56,130 nt of DNA from a virus. The stretch covers positions 1-56,130 of the IMG/VR virus record IMGVR_UViG_3300022751_000019; one strand, given 5' to 3'. The notes under the pieces were generated by a model. It saw only the letters and a list, made by a program, of their open reading frames with translations, searched no databases and was not told the origin of the DNA. Below, piece by piece: positions 13,390-34,450 of the stretch (within the stretch, counting starts at the first letter, position 1; each line of letters begins with the position of its first letter). The translations under genes and the position numbers were made by a program.

Positions 13390-14009
13390 AAAATAAGGAA
13401 ACGAAGGAGGCTGTTATTCCTCCTTCGTTTATCCAAAAAACAATCGTTCTTAATTTAGATGAGAGATTAGATAGATTAGGCGATGTATCAAGAGAATTGA
13501 GTAATTTAGGAATTGAGTTTGAAAGGTTTTCAGCTATTAAACACGACATAGGATGGACAGGATATAATCAATCAATCCTTAAAATCTTAGAAGAGAATCA
13601 AGAAGTTGAGAATTTATTTTTAGTTGAGGACGATTGCAAATTTATTAGTGATTTATCTCATATTAAAAAGGCGATAAAAGAACTACCAAATGATTTTGAT
13701 GCTTTATGGTTAGGGTCTAACCTTCAAGCGGTTCATACAAGAAAATATAGTTCACATTTGTATGAATTAGAAAACGGATGGAACACCCACGCTATTGTAA
13801 CGACAAAGAAATTCAGGGACTGGTGTTTAGAGTATTGGGACAAAGAAATAGTATTCGATGAGTTTCTAAGGATAACAGCCCAGCCATTAAAGAAATGTTT
13901 CGTAGTATATCCAATGGTAGCGATTCAAAAAGCGTCCTTTTCAAATATAATCAATGGGTTTGCCGACTATGAGGAAGTATTTAGACAGGCACAAAATAAA
14001 TTTGCATGA
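13368..14009 (+). CDS. glycosyltransferase, GT25-like
   Basis: Likely transfers a sugar to a protein or glycan. 'IQKTIVLNLDERLDRLGDVSRELSNLGIEFERFSAI' matches the opening of LPS/collagen-type GT25 enzymes, and 'ENLFLVEDDCKF' supplies the acidic 'EDD' motif expected for nucleotide-sugar and metal binding. 'WNTHAIVTTKKF' lies in the second half. It overlaps the capsid gene by 22 bases; no later ATG would keep the motif, so this start is retained. Position in the late operon suggests modification of virion proteins, but host glycans are equally possible. Confidence 0.75.
   Translation: MDSIIVIKNKETKEAVIPPSFIQKTIVLNLDERLDRLGDVSRELSNLGIEFERFSAIKHDIGWTGYNQSILKILEENQEVENLFLVEDDCKFISDLSHIKKAIKELPNDFDALWLGSNLQAVHTRKYSSHLYELENGWNTHAIVTTKKFRDWCLEYWDKEIVFDEFLRITAQPLKKCFVVYPMVAIQKASFSNIINGFADYEEVFRQAQNKFA
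13399..13430 (+). promoter_or_regulatory. strong hairpin just after the capsid gene (possible attenuator)
   Basis: Perfect 12-bp stem (AAACGAAGGAGG / CCTCCTTCGTTT) with an 8-base loop. It sits immediately behind the capsid stop codon and within the first 21 codons of the glycosyltransferase gene. There is no strong T-run after it. It could protect the capsid mRNA 3' end or partly terminate transcription, lowering expression of the next gene. Confidence 0.6.
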
Positions 14010-14968
14010 ATATTTTATTTCATCTTCACGCCTACCCCAATGAAGTTTTAGCAGGAGCCGAGACAATGGCTCATAGAATAGCAAAGTATTTACAAAGCGT
14101 AGGACACAGTGTTAAGGTCTACTCGCAGACGGCAAAAGAGCCAAGAAAGTTCGTTGATAATATAGAGGTGTTAAGATTTGAATCTGGTACAGATGATTCC
14201 GAGAATTGGAAATGGGCGGATTTAGTATTTACTCATTTAGGAGCAACTTATTATTGCTTAAATAAATCAAGATGGTATTCTAAGAAACTGGTTCACCTGA
14301 TACATAATAGCTTTGGCGACCATCTGGTAAGTGTAAGAGTAAAGAATAATTTCTTAGTATACAATTCCGAATATGTCAAAAGGGTTTTAAAATACGAGCA
14401 TCCAAGTTGTATTTGTATTCCTCCAGTAGACTATAGAGAATACCAGAACGTTAAACCTAAAGGCAATTATATTACCCTTGTAAATTTGAATGAAAATAAA
14501 GGAGGGCAGATATTAATTGAACTAGCTAAAAGATTGCCTCAATACCAGTTTTTAGGTGTTACAGGCGGTTATTATGACCAGATTAAGGAAAAGCTACCTA
14601 ATCTGAAATACATCGAGCCACAAAGCAATATAAAGGTAGCTTATGAACAGTCTAAGATTGTAATAATGCCATCAGAATATGAATCTTACGGGCAGGTGGC
14701 TATTGAAGCGATTAGTTGCGGTATTCCAGTAATCAGTTCTAAAGCACAGGGATTAGTTGAAGCTTTGTCTTATGCAGGCACACCGATTGATAGAACCGAT
14801 TTAAACGCATGGTGTGAGGCAATAATTAAATTAATGAGTGATAATGAGTATTACAAAAGAAAGTCCTTAGAATCGCTTAAAAGAGCCAAAGAACTTGACC
14901 CTTTAAATTATTTGAACGGATTAAATGATTTTCTTACACAAATATATAAAATATCATGGCAAGAGTAA
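14006..14968 (+). CDS. glycosyltransferase family 4 (GT-B fold)
   Basis: Retaining glycosyltransferase of the GT4 type. The N-terminal domain opens with 'NILFHLHAYPNEVLAGAETMAHRIAKYL' (the Gly-rich acceptor side). The C-terminal domain carries 'MPSEYESYGQVAIEAISCGIPVISS', the E-x7-E nucleotide-sugar motif. At 320 aa it is compact but complete. Coupled to the GT25-like gene by ATGA overlap, so the two act together. The sugar donor and acceptor cannot be read from the sequence. Confidence 0.88.
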   Translation: MNILFHLHAYPNEVLAGAETMAHRIAKYLQSVGHSVKVYSQTAKEPRKFVDNIEVLRFESGTDDSENWKWADLVFTHLGATYYCLNKSRWYSKKLVHLIHNSFGDHLVSVRVKNNFLVYNSEYVKRVLKYEHPSCICIPPVDYREYQNVKPKGNYITLVNLNENKGGQILIELAKRLPQYQFLGVTGGYYDQIKEKLPNLKYIEPQSNIKVAYEQSKIVIMPSEYESYGQVAIEAISCGIPVISSKAQGLVEALSYAGTPIDRTDLNAWCEAIIKLMSDNEYYKRKSLESLKRAKELDPLNYLNGLNDFLTQIYKISWQE

Positions 14969-20117: not shown

Positions 20118-23100
20118 ATGGCTTACGGACTCAAATATTATGCAAGTGCTTACGGTATCTCTTCTGTTGAATGGAAGGTAGAACTACTGGAAAAAGACTA
20201 TGTAGGCTCTACTTCGGAGTTGGGATTAGTCGGTACTGGTATTCAGATAGGTTACGACAGAGAGGATGCAAAGTTTAATAATATTTACAGCCGTTACGCC
20301 AATATCAATTTAAAAGCTACTGCCGATTTTGGGCTGGATGATTTACAGTTTGATGATGAGCGAAAATTTCAGGTTAAAGTATACAAAAATAGTGTTGTAG
20401 AGTTTATCGGTTGGCTTATTCCTTTTTCTTCTTCAGAGCAGTTCGAGGACGTTTCTTTAGTAGTAGTAACAGTAACAGCTAAAGACGGTATTAACCAGTT
20501 AAAGAATACTGACTTTATTAATGAGCATCCCGAAATAGCCAGCAATAAACAGTCATTTAAGGATATTATCAGTCAGGCTCTCAGGGCAATAGGGTACAAT
20601 CTGCCTTTAGAAATCTACTATAATAAGTATGATGTATCAATGCTCAAAACAGCCTCTGACTGTCCTTTAGCTCAACTCTATTTTAATGTAACAGCCTTTT
20701 ATAATGAGGACAACACTTATATTAATTATTATGAGGCATTAGGAAGGCTTTTAGAGACTCATAACTTACGCATTAGTCAGGTAAGGGGTAAATGGGTAAT
20801 TGTCTCAGCGATTGAATTAGAAGATGGTAGCGTGGCAGGACGTGCTTATAATTACTTAGGGGTATCTACGGGCAATGTTACATTAAATTCCGATTTTGTC
20901 ATTCATACTTCTGGGCCTAAAGTTAAAACAAACGCACAGATTAGAAAAGATATTCCCTATCAACAATTTAGTTCTTTCTATCAGGTTGGGCAATTTACTA
21001 ATCTTTTGGCTAATGGGAATCTAACTAATTATGTCGGACTAGTACCTGTAAACTGGACAAGAGTAGGGTCTTGGAATATTAACGAGGTCTCAACCGTTTC
21101 TGGTGGAGGCATTCAGCTTGACAACACCTATACTAATGATGAGGGATTAGGGAATAAGTATTTCGAGTCCGACTTAGTAGATATTTCCAATCTGGCTAAT
21201 TTTGAATTTAGTGCTGAAGGTTACGCAGATGATACTTTAGATAGTATAAAGATTGCTATCATCCTTTCTAACTCTGAAAATCCAGATGTTAAGTATTATG
21301 TAGACAAATACGGAACCGTTCGGGCTAATCCTATTACATACATTATCGACAAGGGTGTTTTTAATGAGACTGTGGCGTTTGGTTGTAAATTTGTAACCAA
21401 TAGTGCCAATCAATATTTAGATGGCGTAAACAGGCTACAAATAAGGATTTATCCAGGGGTTAAACTCGCTGGTGGTGTACCTCTTCGTAAAAAAGTCAGG
21501 TATAAAAACTTAGTCTTAACAGGACAGCCAAATGTTTACGATAAAGAGTTTGACGGAAAGGTTTATCAGTACAACAATCCTGCTTTGCCTTCGTCTAAAA
21601 AAGATGAACAACAGGATGTTTATTTTCAAGATAACCTATTCTTAGCAGGCTCTCGTTACCGCAACTCTATGTTTGTTGGGAATACCTCAACACTTACCCA
21701 AAGATGGAAAAGAACAGGAGAGGATAACGACTATACGATTGTTGAGTCAGTTTTAATTGACAAACTCTCAATGACAAGCAGGTTCGGGGATATTTTCGAG
21801 GGAGCAATTAAGGGATATATAGACATATTAAGTACACCTAGAATTTACGACGATAGATATTTAGTACTTTACTGCGAGTATGACTTGCAGGATGATACGA
21901 CAGAACTCTTAATGACCGAGTTGTTCGCTCCAGACATTACGGTAGAATATAAAATTTTCGATAAGACTAAAGATGGGAAATTAATAGACGTATCAGACGG
22001 TAGCACTTCAATTAAGATTGAGACCAAAGAAGAGTTCGACCCGCCACCATTCAGAAAAACAATTGTTCCACACCCAAGCATCCCAGGCAAATACCTAGAT
22101 GGATATTTTTACGATTCAGATTTTTTAGTTACAGGTGGGTATGTAAAAATGTCTCAGCTTTTTGTTAATGATACATTCAGAATCTTTGATGAGCAAACAG
22201 ATGGCGACTATACTACTAAAATGATAACAGAAAACCCGTTAAACATTGAGGGTAAAGGTGTAACGGTAAGGTCTAAAGGAGTTATAGATTTTGTTACAGG
22301 TATTGCCAGTGAAATCAAAAGTGCCAGAATTACCGATGGTAGATTATTAGTAGGAGGAAAAGAAGAAGTAGAAGCTCCATATGGAGTAATTCACGGTCAC
22401 AGTGATTCAGTAGAAGCCGAACCGCTCTTGTTTTTAACCAACAAAGAGTCAGGCTTTGCTATCTCGGTAGATGATGCGAATCAAAAAGGAAGATTTGCCT
22501 CTACCGTTCCTATATTTGCCGATACTTTTAAGTGGACTTTTGGCGATGCTGACATATCAGGACTGTTTAATTTTGAGATTGCTCCTATTTCAGAAGTAGA
22601 CGCAGTAGAACCTAATGAACTGGTTAGATTCTCTCAGTTAGCTTCTGTGATTAATACTGTTGATTGGGGACAAATACAAGACCATGAAGCGTATAAGGAT
22701 ATAGACGACTTTACAGGATGGGGAGCGGCTTTTATTAATGGAAACGGTTTAGGGATTGGATTAGAAACAGACTTGCCAGGTAACACCAAGCAGGGCTATA
22801 TAGTAAAGTTTGGCATAGGTAATGAATACACCGACCAGTACACTTTAATGAGTTTTGGCCGTCCCTTTGGTGATTATTTCGACGGAAAACTTTATCTTCG
22901 TGGAATCTATGGCGACCAGGACAGCGGATGGCTCCCAATTGGTGGTGGCGATGTAACAGACTATCAAGAAACAGAAGGCGAGGCACTACGTCAGAAAAGA
23001 GGCATTAAGTACGAAGTTGAAACGGGTGATGATTTTGGATTTATCGGTATCGACAAAATAGATACAGGTATTATTTTTCAAATAAAAAGAGCTAACTTTG

Positions 23101-23852
23101 AAAACGATGATATTGACATCTTAGAAACAAGGATGCGTGCCAGTGATGGAAGGTTAGTTTTTATTGACCAATCAGGTAATGAAAAGCTATATGCATTTGT
23201 AGGTGAAGGGAGTGGGGGTAGTGGAATTCCTTATACTGCAATTCCTCCGATAAGATTTGATTTAAGTGGTGGAACAACACAGATAAGTATTCCAAGAGCT
23301 TCGGAGACAACTACAGGGCATTTAGATAAATCGGATTTTAGCTTGTTTATATCGAAAGTAGGAAGTGTAATTGCCGATGATAGCACCCCGATAACTGTTG
23401 AAGATGTAGACGGTGTTCCTTATCAAAGAAGAATAACTATGTCAGAGGCTAGTACTTCAAATGATGGGTATTTAACGAGCGAAGATTGGAATGAGTTTGA
23501 CAGTAAATTAAGTGATGGTGATATAGTAGAAAACTCTTTAGATTTTAGGTCTGGCGTTTCAAGGTCAAAATTATTATTTAGTAGTTCACAATCTGGAGCC
23601 GAAAACTATGATGCAGAAATGTTTATGCGATATGGTGAGTTTCCATTAGGATTTAATATAATAGGCAAGACAGGCACAAATATACAAATTGAATCAGAGG
23701 GAGGTAATGTAAGACTAATAGGAAACAAGATAATTTTAGACGACTCAATTATTGATACTAGCAACATAGCTTCACTTGTTGGAGGAAATGCTAAATTTGC
23801 TGTAACAGATGAAACAGGCGGAATTTATAGATTAACACTAATAGCAGATTAA
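20118..23852 (+). CDS. large tail tip / baseplate protein, 1244 aa
   Basis: Follows the tape measure, where distal tail and tail-associated proteins lie. The N-terminal part (YYASAYGISSVEWKVELLEK, 'GTGIQIGYDREDAKF', 'FIGWLIPFSS') is typical of the large tail protein of Bacteroidota siphophages. Mid regions are beta-rich, with a probable carbohydrate-binding-like segment near residues 300-480. The last 300 residues resemble fibre sequence ('ETTTGHLDKSDFSLF', 'EASTSNDGYLTSEDWNEF'), a motif pair often seen in Bacteroidota tail fibres. It has no signal peptide, unlike the next five large proteins. Confidence 0.82.
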   Translation: MAYGLKYYASAYGISSVEWKVELLEKDYVGSTSELGLVGTGIQIGYDREDAKFNNIYSRYANINLKATADFGLDDLQFDDERKFQVKVYKNSVVEFIGWLIPFSSSEQFEDVSLVVVTVTAKDGINQLKNTDFINEHPEIASNKQSFKDIISQALRAIGYNLPLEIYYNKYDVSMLKTASDCPLAQLYFNVTAFYNEDNTYINYYEALGRLLETHNLRISQVRGKWVIVSAIELEDGSVAGRAYNYLGVSTGNVTLNSDFVIHTSGPKVKTNAQIRKDIPYQQFSSFYQVGQFTNLLANGNLTNYVGLVPVNWTRVGSWNINEVSTVSGGGIQLDNTYTNDEGLGNKYFESDLVDISNLANFEFSAEGYADDTLDSIKIAIILSNSENPDVKYYVDKYGTVRANPITYIIDKGVFNETVAFGCKFVTNSANQYLDGVNRLQIRIYPGVKLAGGVPLRKKVRYKNLVLTGQPNVYDKEFDGKVYQYNNPALPSSKKDEQQDVYFQDNLFLAGSRYRNSMFVGNTSTLTQRWKRTGEDNDYTIVESVLIDKLSMTSRFGDIFEGAIKGYIDILSTPRIYDDRYLVLYCEYDLQDDTTELLMTELFAPDITVEYKIFDKTKDGKLIDVSDGSTSIKIETKEEFDPPPFRKTIVPHPSIPGKYLDGYFYDSDFLVTGGYVKMSQLFVNDTFRIFDEQTDGDYTTKMITENPLNIEGKGVTVRSKGVIDFVTGIASEIKSARITDGRLLVGGKEEVEAPYGVIHGHSDSVEAEPLLFLTNKESGFAISVDDANQKGRFASTVPIFADTFKWTFGDADISGLFNFEIAPISEVDAVEPNELVRFSQLASVINTVDWGQIQDHEAYKDIDDFTGWGAAFINGNGLGIGLETDLPGNTKQGYIVKFGIGNEYTDQYTLMSFGRPFGDYFDGKLYLRGIYGDQDSGWLPIGGGDVTDYQETEGEALRQKRGIKYEVETGDDFGFIGIDKIDTGIIFQIKRANFENDDIDILETRMRASDGRLVFIDQSGNEKLYAFVGEGSGGSGIPYTAIPPIRFDLSGGTTQISIPRASETTTGHLDKSDFSLFISKVGSVIADDSTPITVEDVDGVPYQRRITMSEASTSNDGYLTSEDWNEFDSKLSDGDIVENSLDFRSGVSRSKLLFSSSQSGAENYDAEMFMRYGEFPLGFNIIGKTGTNIQIESEGGNVRLIGNKIILDDSIIDTSNIASLVGGNAKFAVTDETGGIYRLTLIAD

Positions 23853-23854
23853 AT

Positions 23855-24127
23855 ATGAAATACAATTTCAACATACCATTTGTAGACCTAGACGGAAACC
23901 CGACAGAAGGTAGTCAAGGTAAAACATTAGCTAATGTAATGGCTAATGGCTCTAGTAATACTGACCCTTTAAAGTTCTGGGAATTTGCCGTACTCCTTAA
24001 CAGAGGCGAAGCAATAGAACTGGATACTCAGGATAAAGAAAAGGTAGAAAGTTTTATTAAAAACGCTACTAAGTTAACCAATGGGGGTAAAGCACAATTA
24101 TTACTGGTTTTAAGTCAAACAAAATGA
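23855..24127 (+). CDS. small tail-region protein, 90 aa
   Basis: Starts 'MKYNFNIPFVDLDGNP' and continues with a helical acidic second half (DTQDKEKVESFIKNATKL). Small proteins with an N-terminal 'F.VPF.DLDG' are regular members of tail modules in Bacteroidota phages, as far as I recall. No signal peptide. Coupled by ATGA to the first secreted protein gene. Confidence 0.75.
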   Translation: MKYNFNIPFVDLDGNPTEGSQGKTLANVMANGSSNTDPLKFWEFAVLLNRGEAIELDTQDKEKVESFIKNATKLTNGGKAQLLLVLSQTK

Positions 24128-26121
24128 AAAAGTACGCTTCTGTTTTTCTTGGTTTACTACTTGCTTTTAACATAAGTTACGGGCAAACCTCTGCATTAGT
24201 TGATGCAGGAGGCACGGCAATTGTCAAAAAGAACACCTCTGACAACTGGGCAAAGGTCTACAAGAAAAAGGTTAACGCTAATACGCAGTTTCTTTGGTAT
24301 ACAACCGACTCGGAAGGTGTTAAGTTACCCAGAGGCGGACAGATAGCAGGCACAGTTACCTATAGCTCACTTGCCGTTGCAGAATCTAACATACCTCCTA
24401 ATTATTCGCTAGTCACGGAAGACAACCCTAATATTACCTTTGAGAATACCACCCTGCAAAGATTGGTAGATGCTAATATATTAGGAAGTGTAGACTACGA
24501 TATAAGTATTAACAATACACTAGGATTAAGTGTTTTTCCTTCTACTCCAGTTGTACCTAGTGGCGATTATAAAGCCCAGTTAGACTGGGGGGACGCTGGC
24601 TTATTTAGGGGCAATGCTGAACAAATACTCTCTTTAGGTTTAGCTACAGCATTCGACCACAACCGAATGTTTACCCCTTCGGTGATGCCAGTGGCACACC
24701 GTTACACATGGAACCTAGCACCCGATAGTTACACTAGTGGCTCAGATGCGGAGATTGAAGCTAACGGAGCTGCGGAATACGGTTATATGTTCGGGGTGGG
24801 TGGCACAAGAAGAGACCGAAACAATGCCGTAACTCATACTAAAGAAGTTCACTGGGATATTGAAACGCCAGCGTGGACATTCACCAAAGCAGCAGCTTTT
24901 CTAAAAGGTTTTCACAACGCAGCCATTGCGTACGATGCTGATGCGGTTACGATTATGTATGGCAAGCCTGTAAGAGAATTTAATTTCTTCTGGCGAATGT
25001 CGTCTTATTTTTACGATGGTGACGCAGTAAGTAATAGAAGGAAATTGTATCCTTTTATGAAGAATGCCAAGAATTATCAGAATCCTAGTGGACTGGTAAC
25101 TTCTTATTTCTCAGGCAAAAACGTTTATTTCAATACCCTCCCGTCTTATGCCAATGCTTGCTTACCTTTAAGTACTTCAATGTATAAAAAGGTTGATGGC
25201 GTAATACAGGTCGATGCAGATGGAGAAAGAGACTTTGTAGATAACGGATTTGATGAGACAGTCAGGGGCATAAATTATCATTGGGAGCCTAAACACCCAT
25301 TCGACCCCGTAGACCCCAATCAAGGGCCGTATAAAAACTTTATTCACGAGGCTTTTTGTGCGGTCTATTTCCCTTATGCCTCTTATGCCAATGTAGTTTA
25401 CGAACTAAGGGCTTTACAGGGCGGAAATGATATTCGTACGACACTTAACGGGAATTACAAGACCTGCTGGATGGTACGGACAACGTGCGAGGCTAACCCC
25501 TGGCAGAATGTTTATCGCCCGTTAGACAGATATACAACTAAGCTTCAAGCACTGCTTGGGCATTGTATGAGTAATAAGCTTTTACTTTGGTCTGGATGGA
25601 CAGGTACAGCAGGGTTTAGTGACGATGGTACTAGTGTATTTCCTACCAATAACGAAGGTTCGGGATATGCTCAGGCAACAATTGAGGGCAAAGATTCGCC
25701 ACCATACAATGTAAACTTAGGAGGTGAAAGACAAAATCTCGCAATCTCTTATAAGCTTAAAATGCTTAACCGTGATTATGGTTTATTTAGTTCAACTGAT
25801 AAGCTTTTAACCTTTACTGACCCTTTGCAAATTCAGCCACGAGCCGAGATATTAGGCTTTGGAAGACTTAAAAACAACTATGCTTATATTGTTCTGGCAG
25901 AATCCAGACATGATATAGGAGAAACTATGCAAATCACTATTGGAAATACAAAAAATTCAACTATTTTTACCAGAACATTATCGGCTAAACAGATTATAGA
26001 TGAAGTATTTACGTTTCCTTCGGGAGATACCTATGATTCTGACGACATCTGGATTCAATACCAGACTATCAAAGCGGTTGATGTTAAGGTATCTGGAGAC
26101 TTACAGTCGCACGATATATAG
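24124..26121 (+). CDS. secreted tail-region protein with Q-rule signal peptide, 665 aa
   Basis: N-terminal Sec signal peptide: basic MKKYA, hydrophobic SVFLGLLLAFNI, and predicted cleavage SYG|Q. The mature protein is large and rich in Trp, Tyr and Asn, with 'FDHNRMFTPSVMPVAHRYTW', 'TKEVHWDIETPAWTF' and 'HPFDPVDPNQGPYKNF'. A short beta domain ends it. It may be an adhesin or glycan-active protein; the fold is not recognised. First of five such proteins. No gap separates it from the 23855 gene, so it is part of the tail operon. Confidence 0.75.
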   Translation: MKKYASVFLGLLLAFNISYGQTSALVDAGGTAIVKKNTSDNWAKVYKKKVNANTQFLWYTTDSEGVKLPRGGQIAGTVTYSSLAVAESNIPPNYSLVTEDNPNITFENTTLQRLVDANILGSVDYDISINNTLGLSVFPSTPVVPSGDYKAQLDWGDAGLFRGNAEQILSLGLATAFDHNRMFTPSVMPVAHRYTWNLAPDSYTSGSDAEIEANGAAEYGYMFGVGGTRRDRNNAVTHTKEVHWDIETPAWTFTKAAAFLKGFHNAAIAYDADAVTIMYGKPVREFNFFWRMSSYFYDGDAVSNRRKLYPFMKNAKNYQNPSGLVTSYFSGKNVYFNTLPSYANACLPLSTSMYKKVDGVIQVDADGERDFVDNGFDETVRGINYHWEPKHPFDPVDPNQGPYKNFIHEAFCAVYFPYASYANVVYELRALQGGNDIRTTLNGNYKTCWMVRTTCEANPWQNVYRPLDRYTTKLQALLGHCMSNKLLLWSGWTGTAGFSDDGTSVFPTNNEGSGYAQATIEGKDSPPYNVNLGGERQNLAISYKLKMLNRDYGLFSSTDKLLTFTDPLQIQPRAEILGFGRLKNNYAYIVLAESRHDIGETMQITIGNTKNSTIFTRTLSAKQIIDEVFTFPSGDTYDSDDIWIQYQTIKAVDVKVSGDLQSHDI

Positions 26122-26230
26122 CTATCCAGAATAATTTTTGCTGTTATTTTAAGAATTTAGCTTGTGATTAATAAAAGTGATTCATTTGGTTAGCCAAAGG
26201 AAATCATTTTTAACATTTTATTAAAACACA

Positions 26231-28354
26231 ATGAAACAATTACATTTTTTTCTATTTGCCTTTTTATTTAATGTCTCTATGGCTCACGGTCAGGCTTTAG
26301 GGTTTATTGGTACCGACACAACTACGCTTACCAACTCGCCAACACTTTCTCGACTGGCTTTTAAAGACGACAATTTGTACCGTATCCGTAACACAAGGCC
26401 AGCCGTCTTAATCGCAGCTTCTGAGTATAATTTAACTAATCTTGTTGGGGTAACTGGTAAAATTAAAGTAACAAACGGCACAGGAGCAGTACAAGGTACA
26501 GTGCCAGTAGTTTTAACTTTTTCAGATACTTTAGTAGCAGAGGCACGACTAGAAACCCCTTTATTAGTGGGTGGTACAGGAGCCTCAAGAGTACTTACTG
26601 TTCAATCTACCCTGTCAGCAGGAACAAGTGACGCTATCAGCTTTAAGACAGGCTCACAGGTTGAGAGAATGAGAATAGGGACTAGTGGAGCAATCAGGTT
26701 TAATAGTTATACAGCAGGAATTGCCAAGTTTGACGGGAGTGGTAATATCACCTCTGGCACTATTTCAAGTGGTGACATACCCAGTCTGTCAGCTACTTAT
26801 CTTTCTTTAGCAATCGGTGGAACGGTAAACGCTGGAGTAGTAGCAACTTCTTTTAAGTCTCCTACTGCAATTATTGAGAATCGAAAAAATGGTTCGGAAA
26901 TGGATAGGTATACATGGAGACTAGTTAATAATGGGGCTAATCAAGGGCAATCATTAGTGTTAGATTATTATCAGGAAAACACACCTGTTAACTTCAACTC
27001 TCCTAATATGCTTTACATGAAAAATGGATTAATTGGTATCTTTAATACAAATCCTACTTATACATTAGACTTGTCTGGAAGCTTTCGGGCCTCTAATGCA
27101 CGAATCGCAAATTTAACTGGCGGAGGCAGTGGCGGACTAGTTAGGTCTGACTCGGTAGGAAATTTGACTAATATTATTGCTGGGAACGATGTTTTCGTTA
27201 GAGGTGATGGTTCACTAGACCCTACTGTTTATCTTTCTACTTCAGCAGCAGGAGTATTATATGCACCACTTAATAACCCAACCTTTACAGGAACGGTAAC
27301 AATTCCTACTTTAGCAGTTAGCGGCGTAGCGACATTAAAAGGGAATAAGGTTTTAGGGAACGGCACAGGTGATATTTCTAGTAATAATATTTTCGGTATC
27401 AACGCTTTTCAAAATAACACTACAGGCAATCAAAACGTAGGTATAGGTACTAATTCGTTATTAGCTAATACCACAGGGTCAAGCAATATTGCTATCGGTC
27501 ACAACTCACAAAACGCTAATACCACAGGCATAGGAAACACTTCATTAGGCTCAAGTGCTTTAGTAAGTGGCAGTACGGCTTCTTATAACACTGCAATAGG
27601 TAATAATGCCATGAATAGCGGTAATAGCGGATATAGTACAGCATTGGGAAGGAATGCATTAGGTGCTAATAGTGGAGGATATAGCATAGGCATAGGTTAT
27701 GATGCGGGGTCTCAGGCATCAGGAACGGGCAATGTATTTATCGGGTCTTGGGATGGAACAGGCGTTTCAACAAATAATGGTATGTATTTTTCTACTGGAG
27801 ACAACACAAGGAGGATGACGATTTTAAATTCTGGCAATTTAGGAGTTGGAACGACAAGTCCTACCGAAAAACTTCATGTAAGTGGCAACATCAAAGTGGA
27901 TACCGCAAAACTAGTCAGTGGCTCGATAAGTGGCACTCTTGGTGTAGCTGGAGTAACAACTCTTAAAGACACTTATATTAATAACTCTACCATATTCCCT
28001 AATTTTAATTACGGTATAGATTGGGGTACTAATACAGAGGGAGGAAATACAAATATTACTACATCATCAACAGGAGACCTGCGTTTCTTTGTAAACTCTG
28101 GCATAGATGGATTTATGTCTTTAAAGGCTTCTAATGGGTTTGTGGGTATTGGCACTACTACGCCAGCAGGTAAATTAGACGTGGCTTCAACTACTTCAGC
28201 TTTTTATCCTCCACGAATGTCAGCCTCAGAAAAAGCAGCATTAACGGGACTTACAGCAGGTGCGGTAATTTATTGTACAGACTGTGTAGCAAACGACACT
28301 AGCGGTGGAGTATTACAAATATATAATGGGTCGGTTTGGAAAAGTGCTTATTAA
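26231..28354 (+). CDS. secreted fibre/adhesin with YadA-head-like repeats, 707 aa
   Basis: Signal peptide MKQLHFFLFAFLFNVSMAHG with predicted cleavage before Gln. The middle (residues about 390-515) is a run of about 14-residue repeats, 'NVGIGTNSLLANTTGSSN', 'IAIGHNSQNANTTGIGN', 'AIGNNAMNSG', typical of the beta-roll head of trimeric autotransporter adhesins. 'NSGNLGVGTTSPTEKLHVSG' and 'GFVGIGTTTPAGKLDV' follow, then a terminal 'VIYCTDCVANDTSGGVLQIY' block common in Bacteroidota surface proteins. Likely trimeric. The 109 bases before it hold no clear promoter or terminator. Confidence 0.8.
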   Translation: MKQLHFFLFAFLFNVSMAHGQALGFIGTDTTTLTNSPTLSRLAFKDDNLYRIRNTRPAVLIAASEYNLTNLVGVTGKIKVTNGTGAVQGTVPVVLTFSDTLVAEARLETPLLVGGTGASRVLTVQSTLSAGTSDAISFKTGSQVERMRIGTSGAIRFNSYTAGIAKFDGSGNITSGTISSGDIPSLSATYLSLAIGGTVNAGVVATSFKSPTAIIENRKNGSEMDRYTWRLVNNGANQGQSLVLDYYQENTPVNFNSPNMLYMKNGLIGIFNTNPTYTLDLSGSFRASNARIANLTGGGSGGLVRSDSVGNLTNIIAGNDVFVRGDGSLDPTVYLSTSAAGVLYAPLNNPTFTGTVTIPTLAVSGVATLKGNKVLGNGTGDISSNNIFGINAFQNNTTGNQNVGIGTNSLLANTTGSSNIAIGHNSQNANTTGIGNTSLGSSALVSGSTASYNTAIGNNAMNSGNSGYSTALGRNALGANSGGYSIGIGYDAGSQASGTGNVFIGSWDGTGVSTNNGMYFSTGDNTRRMTILNSGNLGVGTTSPTEKLHVSGNIKVDTAKLVSGSISGTLGVAGVTTLKDTYINNSTIFPNFNYGIDWGTNTEGGNTNITTSSTGDLRFFVNSGIDGFMSLKASNGFVGIGTTTPAGKLDVASTTSAFYPPRMSASEKAALTGLTAGAVIYCTDCVANDTSGGVLQIYNGSVWKSAY

Positions 28355-28386
28355 GCAAGCAAAAATTTACTAGTAAGATAAATACA

Positions 28387-28986
28387 ATGAAAAAACTCTT
28401 AACACTAGCACTTCTGTTAATCGGAAGTGCTACAATGGCACAAAACATTAAGATTTATGTCTCTAATGGTTGTTTAACTTTTTATCCCTCCTCTGCTACG
28501 ACAGGTACTTGTCTGCAACTAGACAAGGTAATATCTATTACAGCTAATCCTGCTAATACCTATGTAACTATCAAGACCTTAGACAATGAGCAGTCTTATC
28601 TAGCTTCAAGTGTAGTTAAAGCAGCAGGTACGGCTTATAGTAGCTCTGCTGATATAGCAAGAGATAGTTTGAACGCTCAGATTAGGGTAGGACGAGCTTC
28701 TTCCTCTAGTAGTGGCTCTTCAAGTGTTACTGTGAGCTATCCGAACAAAGCCTTTTCTCCAACTCCAAGTGTAGGGACTACTCCAGTAGTAATAACAGGT
28801 GGAACGGCTTACACAATAGACATATCGCCACAAGCAGGAGCCACTTATACGATAACTACCACAGCAGGAGGGACAACCGCAGCGACAGGAGATTATAAGT
28901 TCTTCGATGCCAAAGGAGGAAAGATTTCTAATACCATGACCTTTACACCCGTTACAGGGGTATTTCTGTATACTGTTTCACAATGA
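28387..28986 (+). CDS. secreted protein with duplicated C-terminal tip domain, 199 aa
   Basis: Start set at the ATG giving MKKLLTLALLLIGSATMA, a good signal peptide with cleavage before Gln (A|QNIK). A longer upstream start would destroy the signal peptide. The last about 75 residues (from 'GTTPVVITGGTAYTIDISPQ') match the C-terminus of the 31759-32658 product closely. A Ser-rich linker (SSSSGSSS) precedes that domain. Overlaps the next gene by ATGA. Confidence 0.8.
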   Translation: MKKLLTLALLLIGSATMAQNIKIYVSNGCLTFYPSSATTGTCLQLDKVISITANPANTYVTIKTLDNEQSYLASSVVKAAGTAYSSSADIARDSLNAQIRVGRASSSSSGSSSVTVSYPNKAFSPTPSVGTTPVVITGGTAYTIDISPQAGATYTITTTAGGTTAATGDYKFFDAKGGKISNTMTFTPVTGVFLYTVSQ

Positions 28987-30950
28987 AAAAGATATTATTT
29001 TTATTACTTATTAGTTTAAGTGGGTTTGCTCAGAGTTATCCTGCTCCTGTTCCAAATACATATGGATATAATGAAAAGATTTATGAAAAAAGTTACTTTT
29101 CAGACCTGACGGATTTTACATCAACAGGATTCACCCCTACAATTGTTAATAATTACATTAATTTAAGAGCTGGGGCAGGAAACTTTAACCAGTATGTGGT
29201 TATAAATGGTAGCACCAATGCTGACGAAACAATAGAGTATCAAGTCACATTCAGAGCAGATACACTAGGAAATGGAATAGCAATAGGTCAAAGAAGTATC
29301 AATACCTTTTATAGTGGAAGTGTTTCGGTATTCTATTCTACAAATTCTAACGTGATTAGACTTTATGATGCAGAAGCTAATACTATATTGATAGAAAAGA
29401 CCTCACCAATTTCAGTCGCTGGTGATATATTTACCTTAAAATATATCAGGGTAGGAAGTAGGGTGACGGGAGTGGTTGTCAATGAAACGCAAAAAACAAC
29501 AACAACGGTAACGGTAAACAACAACCTTTCCACTAGTGTGAATTTTAAAATTCCAAATACAAATCAATTACGTATCTGGAATATTGGTGGTTCAATGGCA
29601 ATTCTTTCTATTAGAGCTATTTCTCACTTAAACTACAATGCACCAGTATTATTTGTAGGGGATTCTAAAACGATTGGATATTCTGCAAAGACGACAGAAT
29701 TAAGATTCCCCTCGTTATTAGGGTATGGGGTATACGGGGGGGCAGGAGACAGGACAACAGAGTTGTTGTTAGTAGTTAATCAAATAATTGCCCTGAAACC
29801 AAAGAGGGTGGTTTTGTGCATAGGTCGAAATGACATAGGGTCTGGCACATCAAGTGGTACATGGCAATCCAACTACACAAGTATAGTTAATTCTTTAACA
29901 GCTGCAGGTATTGACGTTTACCATTTGTACGGTATAGGGGAAACTGCTGTAAGTCAAGCCGCATTAAACACATTTATTGTTGCTAATTATGCAGCATCTC
30001 AAAGAATTGATGTAAGTAGCGGTTGGGTTAATGCTACTATGCTCTCTTCAGACAATGTTCATCCAAACGATAATGGACATAGGTATATTGCAAATGCAAT
30101 TACCGCTACAGGAAAACTACCTGTTTCAATATTTAGAGAAAAGGTTAATTCAAGCGAAAAAGTTCTAACTGGCACTTTGCCAGACATAACTACAACCGGA
30201 AGGGTGCCATTTTCTACCGCAGGGAATTATACAAATTCAACTATCTATCAGGACACTAATAATAATTTAATCGTATCTGATGCTACCACCACCCCTTCTA
30301 CATACGGAACAAACTTTCGCATCCTAGAGGTTCTGGGTAGCGGAATTAATGCCTATACTATTCTTTCGCTAGGGTTGACCGGCAATACAAAAAGAGGATA
30401 TATTACATCTGATGTCAATGGAGGACTTTCGATTGGAACGACTACAAATGGTATAAGTGGAGCTACGTCTTTATTTAATTTGGTTCAAAGCAGCCTTAAT
30501 ATAGGAATAGGTACAGCAGCTCCAAATGCCAGTGCTATACTGGATTTGTCTAGCACTGGAAAGGGTGTGTTAATTCCAAGATTGACAACTGCTCAAAGAA
30601 CCGGAATTTCCACGCCAGCGACTGGGTTATTGGTTTACGACACAGACTTTAGAAAGATTTGGCAATACAACGGTACAGCATGGGAAATGGTGGCAAGCAA
30701 CAAAACGATTACCACCGATGTTTACGACGCACCTAGTATTTTAGGAGGTTCAGCATCCACTCCAAGAACAGTTACGGTAACTGGTGCAGCTTTAGGTGAT
30801 TTAATCAGGGTTACTGTTAATGTAGACCAGCAACAAATAAATATAATTGGCTATGTGTCAGCTACAAATACAGTAACTTATTATCTTAGAAACGACACAG
30901 CAGCGCCAATCGATTTAGGCTCGGCTACTTACACCATTTATCGTCAATAA
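28983..30950 (+). CDS. secreted tail-region protein with SGNH hydrolase domain, 655 aa
   Basis: Signal peptide MKKILFLLLISLSGFA|Q. Residues about 220-380 form an SGNH/GDSL hydrolase: block I 'VLFVGDSKTIGYS' (Ser), block III 'VLCIGRNDIGSG' (Asn), block V 'SSDNVHPNDNGHRYI' (Asp and His). A jelly-roll-like domain lies before it (residues about 30-200). The C-terminal 250 residues are fibre-like, with 'GKGVLIPRLTTAQRTGIS' and 'GLLVYDTDFRKIWQYNGTAW' as in Bacteroidota surface proteins. It probably deacylates or de-esterifies a surface glycan. Confidence 0.85.
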   Translation: MKKILFLLLISLSGFAQSYPAPVPNTYGYNEKIYEKSYFSDLTDFTSTGFTPTIVNNYINLRAGAGNFNQYVVINGSTNADETIEYQVTFRADTLGNGIAIGQRSINTFYSGSVSVFYSTNSNVIRLYDAEANTILIEKTSPISVAGDIFTLKYIRVGSRVTGVVVNETQKTTTTVTVNNNLSTSVNFKIPNTNQLRIWNIGGSMAILSIRAISHLNYNAPVLFVGDSKTIGYSAKTTELRFPSLLGYGVYGGAGDRTTELLLVVNQIIALKPKRVVLCIGRNDIGSGTSSGTWQSNYTSIVNSLTAAGIDVYHLYGIGETAVSQAALNTFIVANYAASQRIDVSSGWVNATMLSSDNVHPNDNGHRYIANAITATGKLPVSIFREKVNSSEKVLTGTLPDITTTGRVPFSTAGNYTNSTIYQDTNNNLIVSDATTTPSTYGTNFRILEVLGSGINAYTILSLGLTGNTKRGYITSDVNGGLSIGTTTNGISGATSLFNLVQSSLNIGIGTAAPNASAILDLSSTGKGVLIPRLTTAQRTGISTPATGLLVYDTDFRKIWQYNGTAWEMVASNKTITTDVYDAPSILGGSASTPRTVTVTGAALGDLIRVTVNVDQQQINIIGYVSATNTVTYYLRNDTAAPIDLGSATYTIYRQ

Positions 30951-31756
30951 TGAAAAAGATATTTTTGCTAGTCTTATTTTCTTATAATGTATTTGCTCAG
31001 TCCAGCAATGTAGGAAGTTTAACGCAAACTCAGATGGTAACGATGGCTATGGCGACTCCTTCTATTATTCCTATGGGGTATTTAACTTATTGTAGTGATG
31101 GAGTAAAGGGTTATTATAGATGGTCAGGGACTGAATGGATAAAAATCACTGACAACCCAGAACTATTAGCAGTAATGTCTACTATTCCTATTAATAATAA
31201 TCAGATAGCTAATGGCAGTAATTATTACAATGCCGCTAATCCTCCTGCATGGTCAGTAATTACATCTAAACCAACCACCTTAGCAGGTTACGGTATAACG
31301 GACGGATTTACGACAGCAAATGCAAGAAGTGTTATAAGTCTAACTACCACAGGCACAGGAAGCCCTACCTATAATAATACTACTGGTGTTGTTAATATAC
31401 CTAATAATAGCAATGTTCAGCCTCAGTTTTATACCTCGTCTGGCATGGTTTCTCAGCAGATAAAAGTATGGAACGGAATAGTAACACCCTCAACAGGGAG
31501 CGGACAAACTGTTGATATAAGTTCAGCAGGATTTAGTACTATCTTAAACGTACAGGCACAAGTCGAAAGTAATACTGCATCAGCTACTAGTGTTCCTTTG
31601 GTTTCAATCAAGAGTTATACAACCACTTCGGTGGTAACAAATATAATTGTCTCAAACAATAGTACTATTGGGTCTTTACTTTCTCCAATTGTCGGACTTT
31701 TATTTGCAACCAATTTAACGGGCTATAAATTACACGTTCAGGTAACAGGGTATTAA
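30950..31756 (+). CDS. secreted fibre-like protein, 268 aa
   Basis: Signal peptide MKKIFLLVLFSYNVFA|Q, starting on the last base of the previous stop codon. The mature part opens with 'IPMGYLTYCSDGVKGYYRWSGTEW', related to the terminal block of Bacteroidota surface proteins, then 'GYGITDGFTTANARSVISL', a pattern common in tail fibres. The C-terminus is all-beta. It is probably a short fibre or its tip. Confidence 0.75.
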   Translation: MKKIFLLVLFSYNVFAQSSNVGSLTQTQMVTMAMATPSIIPMGYLTYCSDGVKGYYRWSGTEWIKITDNPELLAVMSTIPINNNQIANGSNYYNAANPPAWSVITSKPTTLAGYGITDGFTTANARSVISLTTTGTGSPTYNNTTGVVNIPNNSNVQPQFYTSSGMVSQQIKVWNGIVTPSTGSGQTVDISSAGFSTILNVQAQVESNTASATSVPLVSIKSYTTTSVVTNIIVSNNSTIGSLLSPIVGLLFATNLTGYKLHVQVTGY

Positions 31757-31758
31757 AT

Positions 31759-32658
31759 ATGGCAACTAAAACAATAAATAGAGGGGATTCCTTAACCATT
31801 GATGTAATTATTGACGAAGATTTACTGTCAAAGGTAGAGGATATTTGGCTATCAGTCAAAGGCGATGTAGTGGCTCAAAAGACCAGTACAGAAATGCCCT
31901 TTATTGAGATTGATAATATTTTTCGTTGTCAGTTAACTTCTTCTTATACTCAAAAACTTAATAATACCTATCCGATTATCGTTTCAGTTCAATGGGATGA
32001 CTTGGGAGTAAGAAAGTCGTTTGAAGCAGAGTCTACAATTTTAAATGTTAAGCAAAACCATAATCCCTCTAACAGTGATGCTGTTTCTTCTGAACCTGAC
32101 ATTGAAATAGAGGTTACTCAAGGAGATAACGGTTTAATTGCCAGTGTGACGCTAGCCACTATTTACAGGGGATACGGCATTATTCCAGGAGGAACAGACG
32201 AAGATAGCCTGGTCAAAGATGGAGCAAATGACTATCTGGTTAAGTGGGCTAAACGTGTACCTTACGAATCGGTTGAAAACTTTGCTGACATATCCGCTTC
32301 TAACCAAATGCGTTTAATAGCTGTTGCGGATGATGAAACAACTGGAGGTAACAGCTCTCTCTACTGGTTTGACGGATTAGTTAAGAATCTTTTAGAATAT
32401 TCATCTATGAAAACAAATATTTCAGCACCAGTAAAGACTAGTAGTGGAACAACGCCTATTACGGTTAGTGCCAATTCTGCCTTCTATATTAATATAGCTC
32501 CACAAGCAGGGGCTACCTATACTATTACAACTCTTGGCGATCCTCCTACTCCAGCAACAGGGGATTATAGTTTTATTGATGGTAAAGGAGGCAAATTAGC
32601 TTTGCAATATACCATTACACCAGTAACGGGGACTTTAATCTATACGGTTGCGGTATGA
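31759..32658 (+). CDS. fibre/baseplate protein with N-terminal BppU-like domain, 299 aa
   Basis: No signal peptide. The first about 100 residues (KTINRGDSLTIDVIIDEDL, 'VEDIWLSVKGDVV') look like the N-terminal domain of upper baseplate proteins that attaches fibres to the tail. The C-terminal about 75 residues are a close relative of the C-terminus of the secreted 28387-28986 product, so the same tip domain occurs on one exported and one non-exported protein. The endolysin gene begins in its last codons. Confidence 0.8.
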   Translation: MATKTINRGDSLTIDVIIDEDLLSKVEDIWLSVKGDVVAQKTSTEMPFIEIDNIFRCQLTSSYTQKLNNTYPIIVSVQWDDLGVRKSFEAESTILNVKQNHNPSNSDAVSSEPDIEIEVTQGDNGLIASVTLATIYRGYGIIPGGTDEDSLVKDGANDYLVKWAKRVPYESVENFADISASNQMRLIAVADDETTGGNSSLYWFDGLVKNLLEYSSMKTNISAPVKTSSGTTPITVSANSAFYINIAPQAGATYTITTLGDPPTPATGDYSFIDGKGGKLALQYTITPVTGTLIYTVAV

Positions 32659-33245
32659 TAAACAAAACCAACTTCTTTGCCATCATCCGCCCACTATTCG
32701 GCAAGTTCTCTGCATCACAAGTACAGGGCTTAGAATTTATATTGGACTACTGGGAGAGTCAATTAGGAACACCAAATTATATAAACTTAACGGTAGCACA
32801 ATTTGCTTATATACTTGCTACTATTCATCATGAAACCGATAAGAAGTTTCAACCTATTGAAGAATATGGAAAGGGCAAAGGATTACCTTACGGCAAACCT
32901 GACCCTGTTACGCATCAGATTTATTACGGACGAGGATTTGTACAAATCACCTGGAAGGCGAATTACGAGAAGTTTGCTAATCTTTTTAATATCAACCTAG
33001 TAAATAATCCAGACCTAGCATTAGAGCCTCTCAAAGCGGTTAAAATAGCGTTTGTAGGCATGACTACTGGAATGTTTACAGGTAAAAAAATAAGTGACTT
33101 TATTAACCAAAATAAAACCGATTTTATAATGGCAAGGTCAGTAATTAACGGAAGAAGAAAAGTAAATGGAGTGTTAGAACCTTTACCTGACAAGGCAGAG
33201 TTAATTGCTTCGTATGCAAGTGTATACTATCTGGCATTAGCCTAA
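32655..33245 (+). CDS. endolysin, GH19-type glycosidase
   Basis: Peptidoglycan-degrading enzyme for host lysis. 'FAYILATIHHETDKKFQPIEEYGKGKGLPYG' carries the catalytic Glu of the chitinase-19/lysozyme fold, and 'YYGRGFVQITWKANYEKF' is the second conserved block. At 196 aa it is a single catalytic domain with no binding domain or signal peptide, so it needs a holin to reach the wall. Candidate holins are in the 40879-42509 cassette rather than next to it. Confidence 0.88.
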   Translation: MINKTNFFAIIRPLFGKFSASQVQGLEFILDYWESQLGTPNYINLTVAQFAYILATIHHETDKKFQPIEEYGKGKGLPYGKPDPVTHQIYYGRGFVQITWKANYEKFANLFNINLVNNPDLALEPLKAVKIAFVGMTTGMFTGKKISDFINQNKTDFIMARSVINGRRKVNGVLEPLPDKAELIASYASVYYLALA

Positions 33246-33366: not shown

Positions 33367-33825
33367 ATGTTGATACTGAAAAATATTCTTTCTTTTCTTC
33401 TAAACTTTAAAACCTTAGGAATTGTACTAGTCTTAGCGATAGGATTCTACTTAGGTAAATCCTGTGAACACAAGTCTAATATTAAGACTATTAAAAAGTA
33501 TGATAAGATAGTTTTAGGCTATAAAGAAAATAAAACTATCGATTCTACTCAAAACGCAAGACTAGCTTTTGAGGTTGACTCTCTACAAAAAGAACTCGTT
33601 TTAAGACAAGATATTATTAATAAGAAGGATATATTAATCCAATCACAAACCAAGTCAATCAAGGGCTTAGAAATGCGTTTAACACAGTCTAATAAAGACT
33701 TTCAAGAAGCTATTGAGCTAGGGCATATTACTTGTGATACTATATTTGTTAAGCCTATCAATATTTTTGAGAAAGGAGTTTATCAGATTTTACCTAAAGC
33801 AAAGATTAAGCGTTTGGTTCAATAG
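33367..33825 (+). CDS. inner-membrane spanin-like protein, 152 aa
   Basis: One N-terminal transmembrane helix (LGIVLVLAIGFYLG) followed by a long charged coiled-coil (IDSTQNARLAFEVDSLQKEL, 'RQDIINKKDILIQSQ') and a short C-terminal tail, the architecture of Rz-like i-spanins. It lies downstream of the endolysin. No partner o-spanin lipoprotein was identified nested in it. The 3' end overlaps the convergent LytTR gene by 20 bases. Confidence 0.65.
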   Translation: MLILKNILSFLLNFKTLGIVLVLAIGFYLGKSCEHKSNIKTIKKYDKIVLGYKENKTIDSTQNARLAFEVDSLQKELVLRQDIINKKDILIQSQTKSIKGLEMRLTQSNKDFQEAIELGHITCDTIFVKPINIFEKGVYQILPKAKIKRLVQ

Positions 33826-34450
33826 TTGGTATGCCTTTAAAAATTCTCTTTGAAGGAACTACACATCTTCTGGATACTGGTATTCGCTTATTGCCTTTTA
33901 TTAACACAAAAGAAGGCTCTTTTACATTCAAATAGACGCCTATTACATATCGCTTGTTAACTATACAGGCTCTACTAATCCTAACAAAATTAGGGTCAAC
34001 TATTCTTTTGGAGTATTCTTTTATACTTATACCTGCCACAATATTAGCCTTTCCATAAAAGGTAAAGTCGGTATAATTTATCTTAGCTGTAAGATATTTT
34101 ATTTCTCTTGTGTCTATTAATTCGTGCTTTCCATTTTTTACAATATCAATAAAATACTTTTCTTCTTTGTCGCAAAGCTTTGGCGAAATGGCGGAGTTGT
34201 AGTCAGCAAACTTTTTACCCAGATATTTAGAAATATCAATACTTGCACCTTGAAATAAAACAATGCTATTTATTGGAGTTATCAATTCTTTATAATCAAC
34301 ATCTTTAGATTTTACTATAAAAAACTTGTCATGATTATCCTTTACTAGATAATACCCGTTATGAACATAAATGATTATATGTTTGGAATAAAAGTCAATA
34401 ATAGATTTTCTAGCTTTAGGTTTATATCCGTCAACAGATGGCTTGTTCAT
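33806..34450 (-). CDS. LytTR-type DNA-binding regulator, 214 aa
   Basis: The C-terminal about 90 residues follow a LytTR domain: 'LIDTREIKYLTAKINYTDF', then 'GISIKEYSKRIVDPNFVRISRACIVNKRYVIGV', then 'GNKRIPVSRRCV'. The N-terminal about 110 residues are unassigned and lack a response-regulator receiver signature. In bacteria LytTR proteins bind short direct repeats and regulate surface or competence genes. Phage-encoded examples are uncommon. It ends the leftward accessory cluster and converges on the late operon. Confidence 0.75.
   Translation of the reverse strand: MNKPSVDGYKPKARKSIIDFYSKHIIIYVHNGYYLVKDNHDKFFIVKSKDVDYKELITPINSIVLFQGASIDISKYLGKKFADYNSAISPKLCDKEEKYFIDIVKNGKHELIDTREIKYLTAKINYTDFTFYGKANIVAGISIKEYSKRIVDPNFVRISRACIVNKRYVIGVYLNVKEPSFVLIKGNKRIPVSRRCVVPSKRIFKGIPTIEPNA

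Follow-up and report, generated by a model that had tools for sequence, protein, structure and literature searches.

Five consecutive tail-region genes with Q-rule signal peptides in a metagenomic virus: candidate exported fibres of Bacteroidota phages

Introduction

Tailed phages are taught as being assembled wholly in the cytoplasm. Virion proteins with cleaved signal peptides are known from filamentous phages, whose coat proteins pIII and pVIII are inserted into the membrane and assembled during extrusion; the phages considered here, by contrast, are tailed double-stranded DNA phages with cytoplasmic capsids. The present study concerns IMG/VR virus record IMGVR_UViG_3300022751_000019, analysed over 56,130 bases (positions 1 to 56,130 of the record; hereafter 'the window'), in which five consecutive tail-region genes, starting at 24124, 26231, 28387, 28983 and 30950, encode proteins that begin with a signal peptide ending in a small residue, followed by Gln at position +1. 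This arrangement corresponds to the Q-rule of Bacteroidota; in Porphyromonas gingivalis, more than 60% of the substrates of signal peptidase I have Gln at +1 (PMC5837995).

The most similar arrangements occur in Cellulophaga phages phi10:1 and phi19:1 (Assiduviridae) and phi18:3, phi46:3, phi19:3 and phi13:2 (Pachyviridae), as well as in Nekkels and Ingeline, which like the window have consecutive runs of three to five Q-rule genes in the fibre region. The bodies and docking domains of their tail-fibre and pectate-lyase modules, however, differ from those of the window, and their hosts are marine Cellulophaga, whereas a relative of the window's tail-tip protein is found in Emticicia. That the lyases of Nekkels and Ingeline carry 'signaling peptides' was mentioned in 2021, together with the remark that such enzymes usually sit on tails; relatives include the siphovirus-like Nekkels (Assiduviridae) and the podovirus-like Gundel (Pachyviridae), and export as an assembly route is not stated in the available sections of that paper (PMC8776804). 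A second case are the P. gingivalis phages (proposed Nixviridae), for which five Q-rule proteins of unknown function were reported in 2023; according to the part of the report available, the authors propose that host secretion is used and that the host outer membrane may be modified (PMC10367356). Like those of the window, these proteins are phage-encoded, but in that part they are not linked to tails or virions. Third, the MAT fibres of Bdellovibrio bacteriovorus are tail-fibre-like trimers with a signal peptide, a conserved beta-rich domain and variable tips (PMC10769870), so a phage-fibre-like fold can be exported. Solved MAT fragments are matched by one of the window's proteins, yet MAT fibres are cellular and located on the predator surface, with no virion involved.

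A preliminary description of the window, made from its sequence alone, had held that no system of this kind was described for a phage tail operon. This is partly incorrect, since signal peptides and Q-rule proteins had already been mentioned in the two phage papers cited above; what does stand is that the conclusion on assembly was not drawn in the literature found. In the open-licence literature searched there is no description of tailed-phage fibres as Sec-exported parts of the virion, and an earlier statement elsewhere is possible. Here we argue that the five proteins are very likely exported components of the virion and not decoys. Export and virion membership are well supported, and the site of assembly is what we infer from them. 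The explanation as a whole, i.e. fibres that would be exported by Sec, processed at Gln, kept in the periplasm and joined to the virion at lysis, has in our estimate a probability of about two in three.

Results and discussion

Signal peptides and nature of the five proteins

Signal peptides were evaluated with a rule-based scorer, which is a stand-in for SignalP and considers charge, hydrophobic core, small residues at -3 and -1 and Gln at +1. All five proteins (5/5) show a basic n-region, a hydrophobic core, small residues at -3 and -1 and Gln at +1. The leaders, all on the plus strand and each with Gln at +1, are MKKYASVFLGLLLAFNISYG (24124-24183), MKQLHFFLFAFLFNVSMAHG (26231-26290), MKKLLTLALLLIGSATMA (28387-28440), MKKILFLLLISLSGFA (28983-29030) and MKKIFLLVLFSYNVFA (30950-30997); for 26231, the scorer slightly favours SMA/HGQ, with AHG/Q still being a legal site. 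Operon spacing makes the start codons credible, because the ATGs at 24124 and 28983 overlap the preceding stop codons and 30950 has a one-base overlap. The same scorer finds no Q-rule signal peptide in the remaining open reading frames (ORFs) of the window, and as a control, 0 of 786 internal Met positions of ORFs pass the test. The chance of finding five consecutive signal-peptide genes is about 1e-5 to 3e-6 (for 60-84 genes); the run ends at 30950, since its neighbour 31759 has no signal peptide. The coordinates and cleavage motifs of the preliminary description were correct, and its proposal that the products of these tail genes are destined for export has good support. The leader DNA of 28983 and 30950 (window positions 28982-29033 and 30949-31000) is 71% identical over 52 bases, ending at the Gln codon, while beyond the leader the two genes are unrelated; possibly, this leader was duplicated as a module.

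The first protein (24124-26121, plus strand, 665 amino acids), which is predicted to be exported and occupies what we call slot 1, consists of the signal peptide, a docking (adaptor) domain of about 77 residues and a body of unknown fold. Signal peptide and first ~77 mature residues share 50-56% identity with those of L063:5800, which occupies the equivalent slot on a different viral contig (L numbers denote the loci compared here), whereas the bodies are unrelated. Neither 24124 nor 28387 has a family match of its own, and a scan of viral contigs yielded no relatives of 24124. Weak PDB sequence matches to a HAUS augmin subunit (E 0.014) are not believed, a weak BLASTP match to L007:14363 (E 0.002) was superseded by profile comparison, and a single-sequence AlphaFold model with a predicted local distance difference test (pLDDT) score of 29 was useless. 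The second protein (26231-28354, plus strand, 707 amino acids) is a predicted exported fibre with repeats of the YadA-head type (NTTGNQNVGIGTNSLLANTTGSSN...) and the common fibre C-terminus. It matches PHROGs tail spike and virion structural families, and its residues 493-655 match MAT fibre structures (8ond, E 4e-8; 8ojn, E 1e-5); only this shaft region does so, and the conserved N-terminal MAT domain of about 130 residues was not found in that sequence search.

The third protein (28387-28986, plus strand, 199 amino acids, predicted exported) has its C-terminal ~71 residues in common with the non-exported product of 31759 in the same operon (56% identity over 71 residues, E 3e-23). The fourth (28983-30950, plus strand, 655 amino acids) is a predicted exported SGNH/GDSL hydrolase (Lipase_GDSL_2, E 1.5e-11) with GDSK, GRND and DNVHPND blocks and a fibre-type C-terminus that matches fibres of L007, L063 and L070 (E 4e-16 to 4e-17); relatives in the scan of viral contigs amount to one weak locus. 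The fifth protein (30950-31756, plus strand, 268 amino acids) is a predicted exported fibre-like protein with weak matches to PHROGs tail fibre and head decoration families (E 8e-4 to 1e-3). By these similarities, the five proteins appear to be tail-fibre or enzyme modules of the tail region.

Virion annotation of Q-rule fibre proteins in isolated phages

The most telling argument for virion membership comes from isolated Cellulophaga phages. In phi10:1, five consecutive Q-rule signal-peptide genes (gp091-gp095) are located shortly downstream of gp088, the homolog of the window's tail-tip protein, and gp091, gp092, gp093 and gp094 carry the GenBank note 'experimental MS/MS proteomics' (MS/MS, tandem mass spectrometry). 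The same note is attached to the Q-rule proteins gp101-gp103 of phi19:1, to its gp104, whose start resembles a signal peptide but lacks the Gln, and to the Q-rule proteins gp085-gp087 of phi18:3. Altogether, ten Q-rule fibre proteins from three phages and two families are annotated in GenBank as detected by MS/MS in virions. Such detection is not general for exported phage proteins, because the Q-rule genes outside the fibre run, phi10:1 gp106 and phi19:1 gp061, are without this note. Further runs occur in phi46:3, with five Q-rule genes in a row, and in phi19:3, phi13:2, Nekkels_1 and Ingeline_1, with three to four in the fibre region. A cut according to the Q-rule would generate the mature N-termini pyro-QTTDVVK (phi10:1 gp091), pyro-QTVIKIK (gp093/gp102) and pyro-QVLVPENTGYGYDNLTTVQLNALTK (phi18:3 gp085).

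Several points weigh against our interpretation. The MS/MS statement is a note by the GenBank submitters, which is distinct from primary data or purity controls, and it refers to other phages and not to the window's own five proteins. Within phi10:1, gp095 has a signal peptide and no MS/MS note. Cleavage and N-terminal pyroglutamate in virion fibres are predicted from the Q-rule motif. Finally, the fibres of phi12:1, phi18:1, 11b, RAP44, 6H, B40-8, P2559S, P12002L and the fibre region of an Emticicia prophage lack signal peptides, which means that fibres of Bacteroidota phages can function without being exported.

A docking position shared by exported and non-exported fibres

The slot taken by 24124 is occupied by proteins without a signal peptide in L005, L007, L014, L065 and the Emticicia sp. 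BO119 prophage (L012). By profile comparison, the N-terminal domain of these proteins and the mature N-termini of 24124 and L063:5800 are homologous (hhalign E 5e-9; 59 columns with 41% identity). Even close relatives differ in this respect: L063 and L065, in which the 90-residue gene, the lysozyme and the spanin are 99%, 91% and 96% identical, have a slot-1 protein of the exported type (L063:5800) and of the non-exported type, respectively. Along the same lines, phi17:2 has a pectate-lyase body akin to exported ones but no signal peptide. One docking position thus seems, as judged from sequence comparison, to be served by exported as well as non-exported fibres, which does not fit easily with proteins that act at the cell surface alone.

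Action at the surface is the essence of the alternative that survives best and that we nevertheless regard as unlikely, namely that the proteins are exported non-virion depolymerases, esterases or adhesins, which act at the surface of the infected cell as decoys, in exclusion or in matrix clearing, and whose presence in virion preparations would reflect co-purification. It is in line with the signal peptides being real, with the SGNH hydrolase and the pectate lyases being plausible as secreted depolymerases, and with Q-rule signal peptides on all of the Emticicia host proteins that have the fibre C-terminus (7/7). It does not account for the annotated virion detection of the ten fibre proteins when other Q-rule phage proteins lack it, nor for the genes occupying the receptor-binding slots of the tail operon, nor for a docking domain homologous to that of non-exported tail proteins. 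Moreover, a sorting domain of the type IX secretion system (T9SS) was represented by no model among the NCBIfam matches at E <= 1 for the five window and five phi10:1 proteins, nor by a Pfam match, and there is no lipobox with Cys at +1, this residue being Gln in 5/5 window proteins; nothing of this kind would therefore take the proteins past the periplasm. Of the two options initially put forward, joining the virion outside the cytoplasm is favoured by the MS/MS annotations, whereas surface decoys or exclusion factors have no positive support and, with the genes being part of a late tail operon, are not needed as an explanation.

Leader conservation

In seven phages with a fibre of the phi10:1 gp093 type, the 21 codons of the leader including the Gln contain 8 synonymous and 0 nonsynonymous variable columns, and the first 40 codons contain 17 and 0, respectively. 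In this family, the first two blocks of 50 columns have amino acid identities of 0.99 and 0.91, compared with about 0.4 in the body. In a second family (ten copies), leader changes all keep the motif while the bodies diverge to 0.05-0.25, and in a family of freshwater type that is close to relatives of the window (L014, L063, L064, L065), 5 synonymous and 1 nonsynonymous columns are found among 19 leader columns. From these identity and codon patterns within shared fibre families it follows that leader and adaptor, i.e. the next ~80 residues, are conserved while the body is exchanged. The signal peptide, as read from these patterns, is under selection and travels with the docking domain.

These data bear directly on a second alternative, which we consider quite improbable: the leader would not be used for export, because Sec could not keep pace with the folding and trimerization of the fibres, and the virion would retain the hydrophobic N-terminus, e.g. 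as a tail plug or anchor. Tail fibres normally do assemble in the cytoplasm, non-exported homologs fulfil the same job, and cleaved N-termini are deduced from sequence. A Gln right behind a signal peptidase I site in 28/28 fibre proteins (chosen for that feature) would be pointless, however, unless the site is cut. Likewise, the purely synonymous leader variation in the gp093-type family and the retention of the same cleavage logic by leaders of unlike sequence (Ingeline_32 versus phi10:1 gp093) are not what an unused leader would lead one to expect.

Lysogenic conversion, with the proteins being prophage-encoded surface adhesins made by the lysogen, appears very improbable. Ingeline has an integrase, an AntA-type antirepressor is encoded in the window and the C-terminal modules also occur in secreted host proteins, but the genes lie inside a tail-lysis operon in which they are mostly translationally coupled, fibre-gene promoters of their own are unsupported (24 promoter-like sites versus 30.5 in shuffled sequences), and isolated phages carry such genes, which are annotated there as coding for virion proteins. 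That the N-termini are hydrophobic by chance or that host DNA was mis-binned as virus is hardly credible even for a metagenomic contig, given the control (0/786), a clustering probability of about 1e-5 or less and a complete phage gene order, and is refuted by the same feature in isolated phages.

Proposed mechanism and its implications

How could exported fibres become part of a tailed virion? Following our preferred explanation, i.e. Sec-exported fibres that join the virion at lysis, the five proteins would be receptor-binding fibres or enzymatic tail spikes made as Sec precursors; the signal peptide points to Sec export and the Q-rule motif to cleavage. Host signal peptidase I would cut the leader, the new N-terminal Gln would presumably be cyclized, as expected under the Q-rule, and the mature fibres would fold and accumulate in the periplasm. 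Without a T9SS domain or a lipobox, mature proteins would remain in the periplasm; since neither was found, this is the location to be expected here. Periplasmic fibres would then have to come into contact with the tails in the periplasm or after lysis, as the adjoining lysis genes would allow: tails would be assembled in the cytoplasm, and the fibres could dock via the short conserved domain directly behind the signal peptide when the cell has been opened by holin, endolysin and spanin. Attachment outside of cells has precedents, as tail spikes and fibres of other phages join particles in in vitro complementation. Actual export and cleavage, periplasmic storage and docking at or after lysis are what the sequences lead us to expect.

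Export might give the fibres access to periplasmic chaperones, keep them from binding or acting as enzymes too early while still in the cytoplasm, or supply additional free enzyme. A need for disulfide bonds was rejected as a reason, because cysteines are not enriched (2.8 per 1000 residues in exported versus 4.7 in non-exported proteins). Periplasmic O-glycosylation also came into view, when D[ST][AILVMT] motifs at first appeared to be depleted in exported fibres (34 observed versus 64.5 expected); in a non-redundant set with control motifs, however, the effect shrank to 0.82 (p 0.06) and was not motif-specific, the depletion being stronger for D[ST] with other residues behind it, and this reason was rejected as well.

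In more general terms, we lean slightly towards the proposition that in a whole class of Bacteroidota tailed phages the final steps of virion assembly take place outside the cytoplasm. The capsid and the tail would be built inside, interchangeable fibres would be pre-exported via Sec, processed at the N-terminus by enzymes of the host and added to the particle either in the periplasm or once the cell has lysed, and signal peptide plus docking domain would form a portable fibre cassette moving between siphoviruses and podoviruses. If many Bacteroidota phages do send their fibres through Sec, with processing by the signal peptidase and glutaminyl cyclase of the host, host export becomes part of virion assembly; fibres may be mounted at or after lysis and possibly be shared between phages within one cell, and free exported depolymerases may act ahead of lysis. 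The cassette of signal peptide and adaptor would also help to identify receptor-binding proteins in phages of Bacteroidota.

Distribution and origin

With the L014 fibre as a query, 27 viral loci were found in IMG/VR, 13 of which carry a Q-rule signal peptide on the ORF that matches. Fibre signal peptides are thus a recurrent, though not universal, trait among Bacteroidota phages. Emticicia was the only bacterial genome found to contain a relative of the window's tail-tip gene, and the scan detected no relatives of the tape-measure protein in bacterial genomes. In Emticicia (genome G001), seven loci (L019-L024 and L026) encode Q-rule signal-peptide proteins that have the fibre C-terminal module in common with phage fibres, which makes an exchange between host surface proteins and phage fibres likely, in either direction. 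The Emticicia prophage L012 contains a Q-rule gene for 135 amino acids (AMA/Q; L012:4100-4504) upstream of the tape-measure gene, i.e. outside the fibre region.

Gene context and lysis region

The window shows the usual gene order of a tailed phage, with terminase, portal, protease, major capsid protein, tail genes and tape measure followed by the tail-tip protein, the fibres, a GH19 endolysin and a spanin-like gene, while early genes are on the opposite strand. The five signal-peptide genes lie downstream of the tail-tip gene and upstream of the lysis genes, an order matching that of L007, L014 and L063. The tail-tip or anchor protein (20118-23852, plus strand, 1244 amino acids; phrog_23570, phrog_33803) has no signal peptide and is homologous to phi10:1 gp088 (tblastn E 4e-12), an MS/MS-confirmed structural protein of this Cellulophaga phage, and to phi18:1 gp59 (E 3e-14). 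Some relatives have a tail-tip protein that continues into a fused fibre of great length without a signal peptide (L006:10001-21982, about 4000 amino acids; L003:10001-15232), and a related gene in L005 is interrupted by a stop codon. Between anchor and first fibre slot lies a conserved gene for 90 amino acids without a signal peptide (23855-24127, plus strand), which is resembled by ORFs of 90-121 amino acids at the matching position in L014, L063, L065, L012 and L007. Two glycosyltransferase genes (GT25-type and GT4-type, 13368-14968) are inserted between the gene of the major capsid protein and those of the tail. The same pair is present at L007:3106-4706, and a glycosyltransferase is also encoded in the head gene region of phi12:1 and phi18:1; those of the window could modify virion proteins.

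Downstream of the run follow the tail-region protein that shares its C-terminal domain with 28387 (31759-32658, plus strand, 299 amino acids, no signal peptide), the GH19-type endolysin (32655-33245, plus strand; Glyco_hydro_19, E 2.3e-6) and a small membrane-anchored protein with one N-terminal hydrophobic segment, which by its position is spanin-like (33367-33825, plus strand). Directly behind and opposed to this tail-lysis operon, a LytTR-type DNA-binding protein is encoded on the minus strand (33806-34450), a type of regulator uncommon in phage. In relatives, a conserved 144-residue Q-rule signal-peptide gene follows the spanin-like gene (L014:14543-14974, L063:10525-10956, L064:2685-3116, L065:10074-10505), and the lysis region of Pachyviridae contains a Q-rule gene for 122 amino acids (e.g. 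L043:13541-13906); both are possible components of the lysis machinery.

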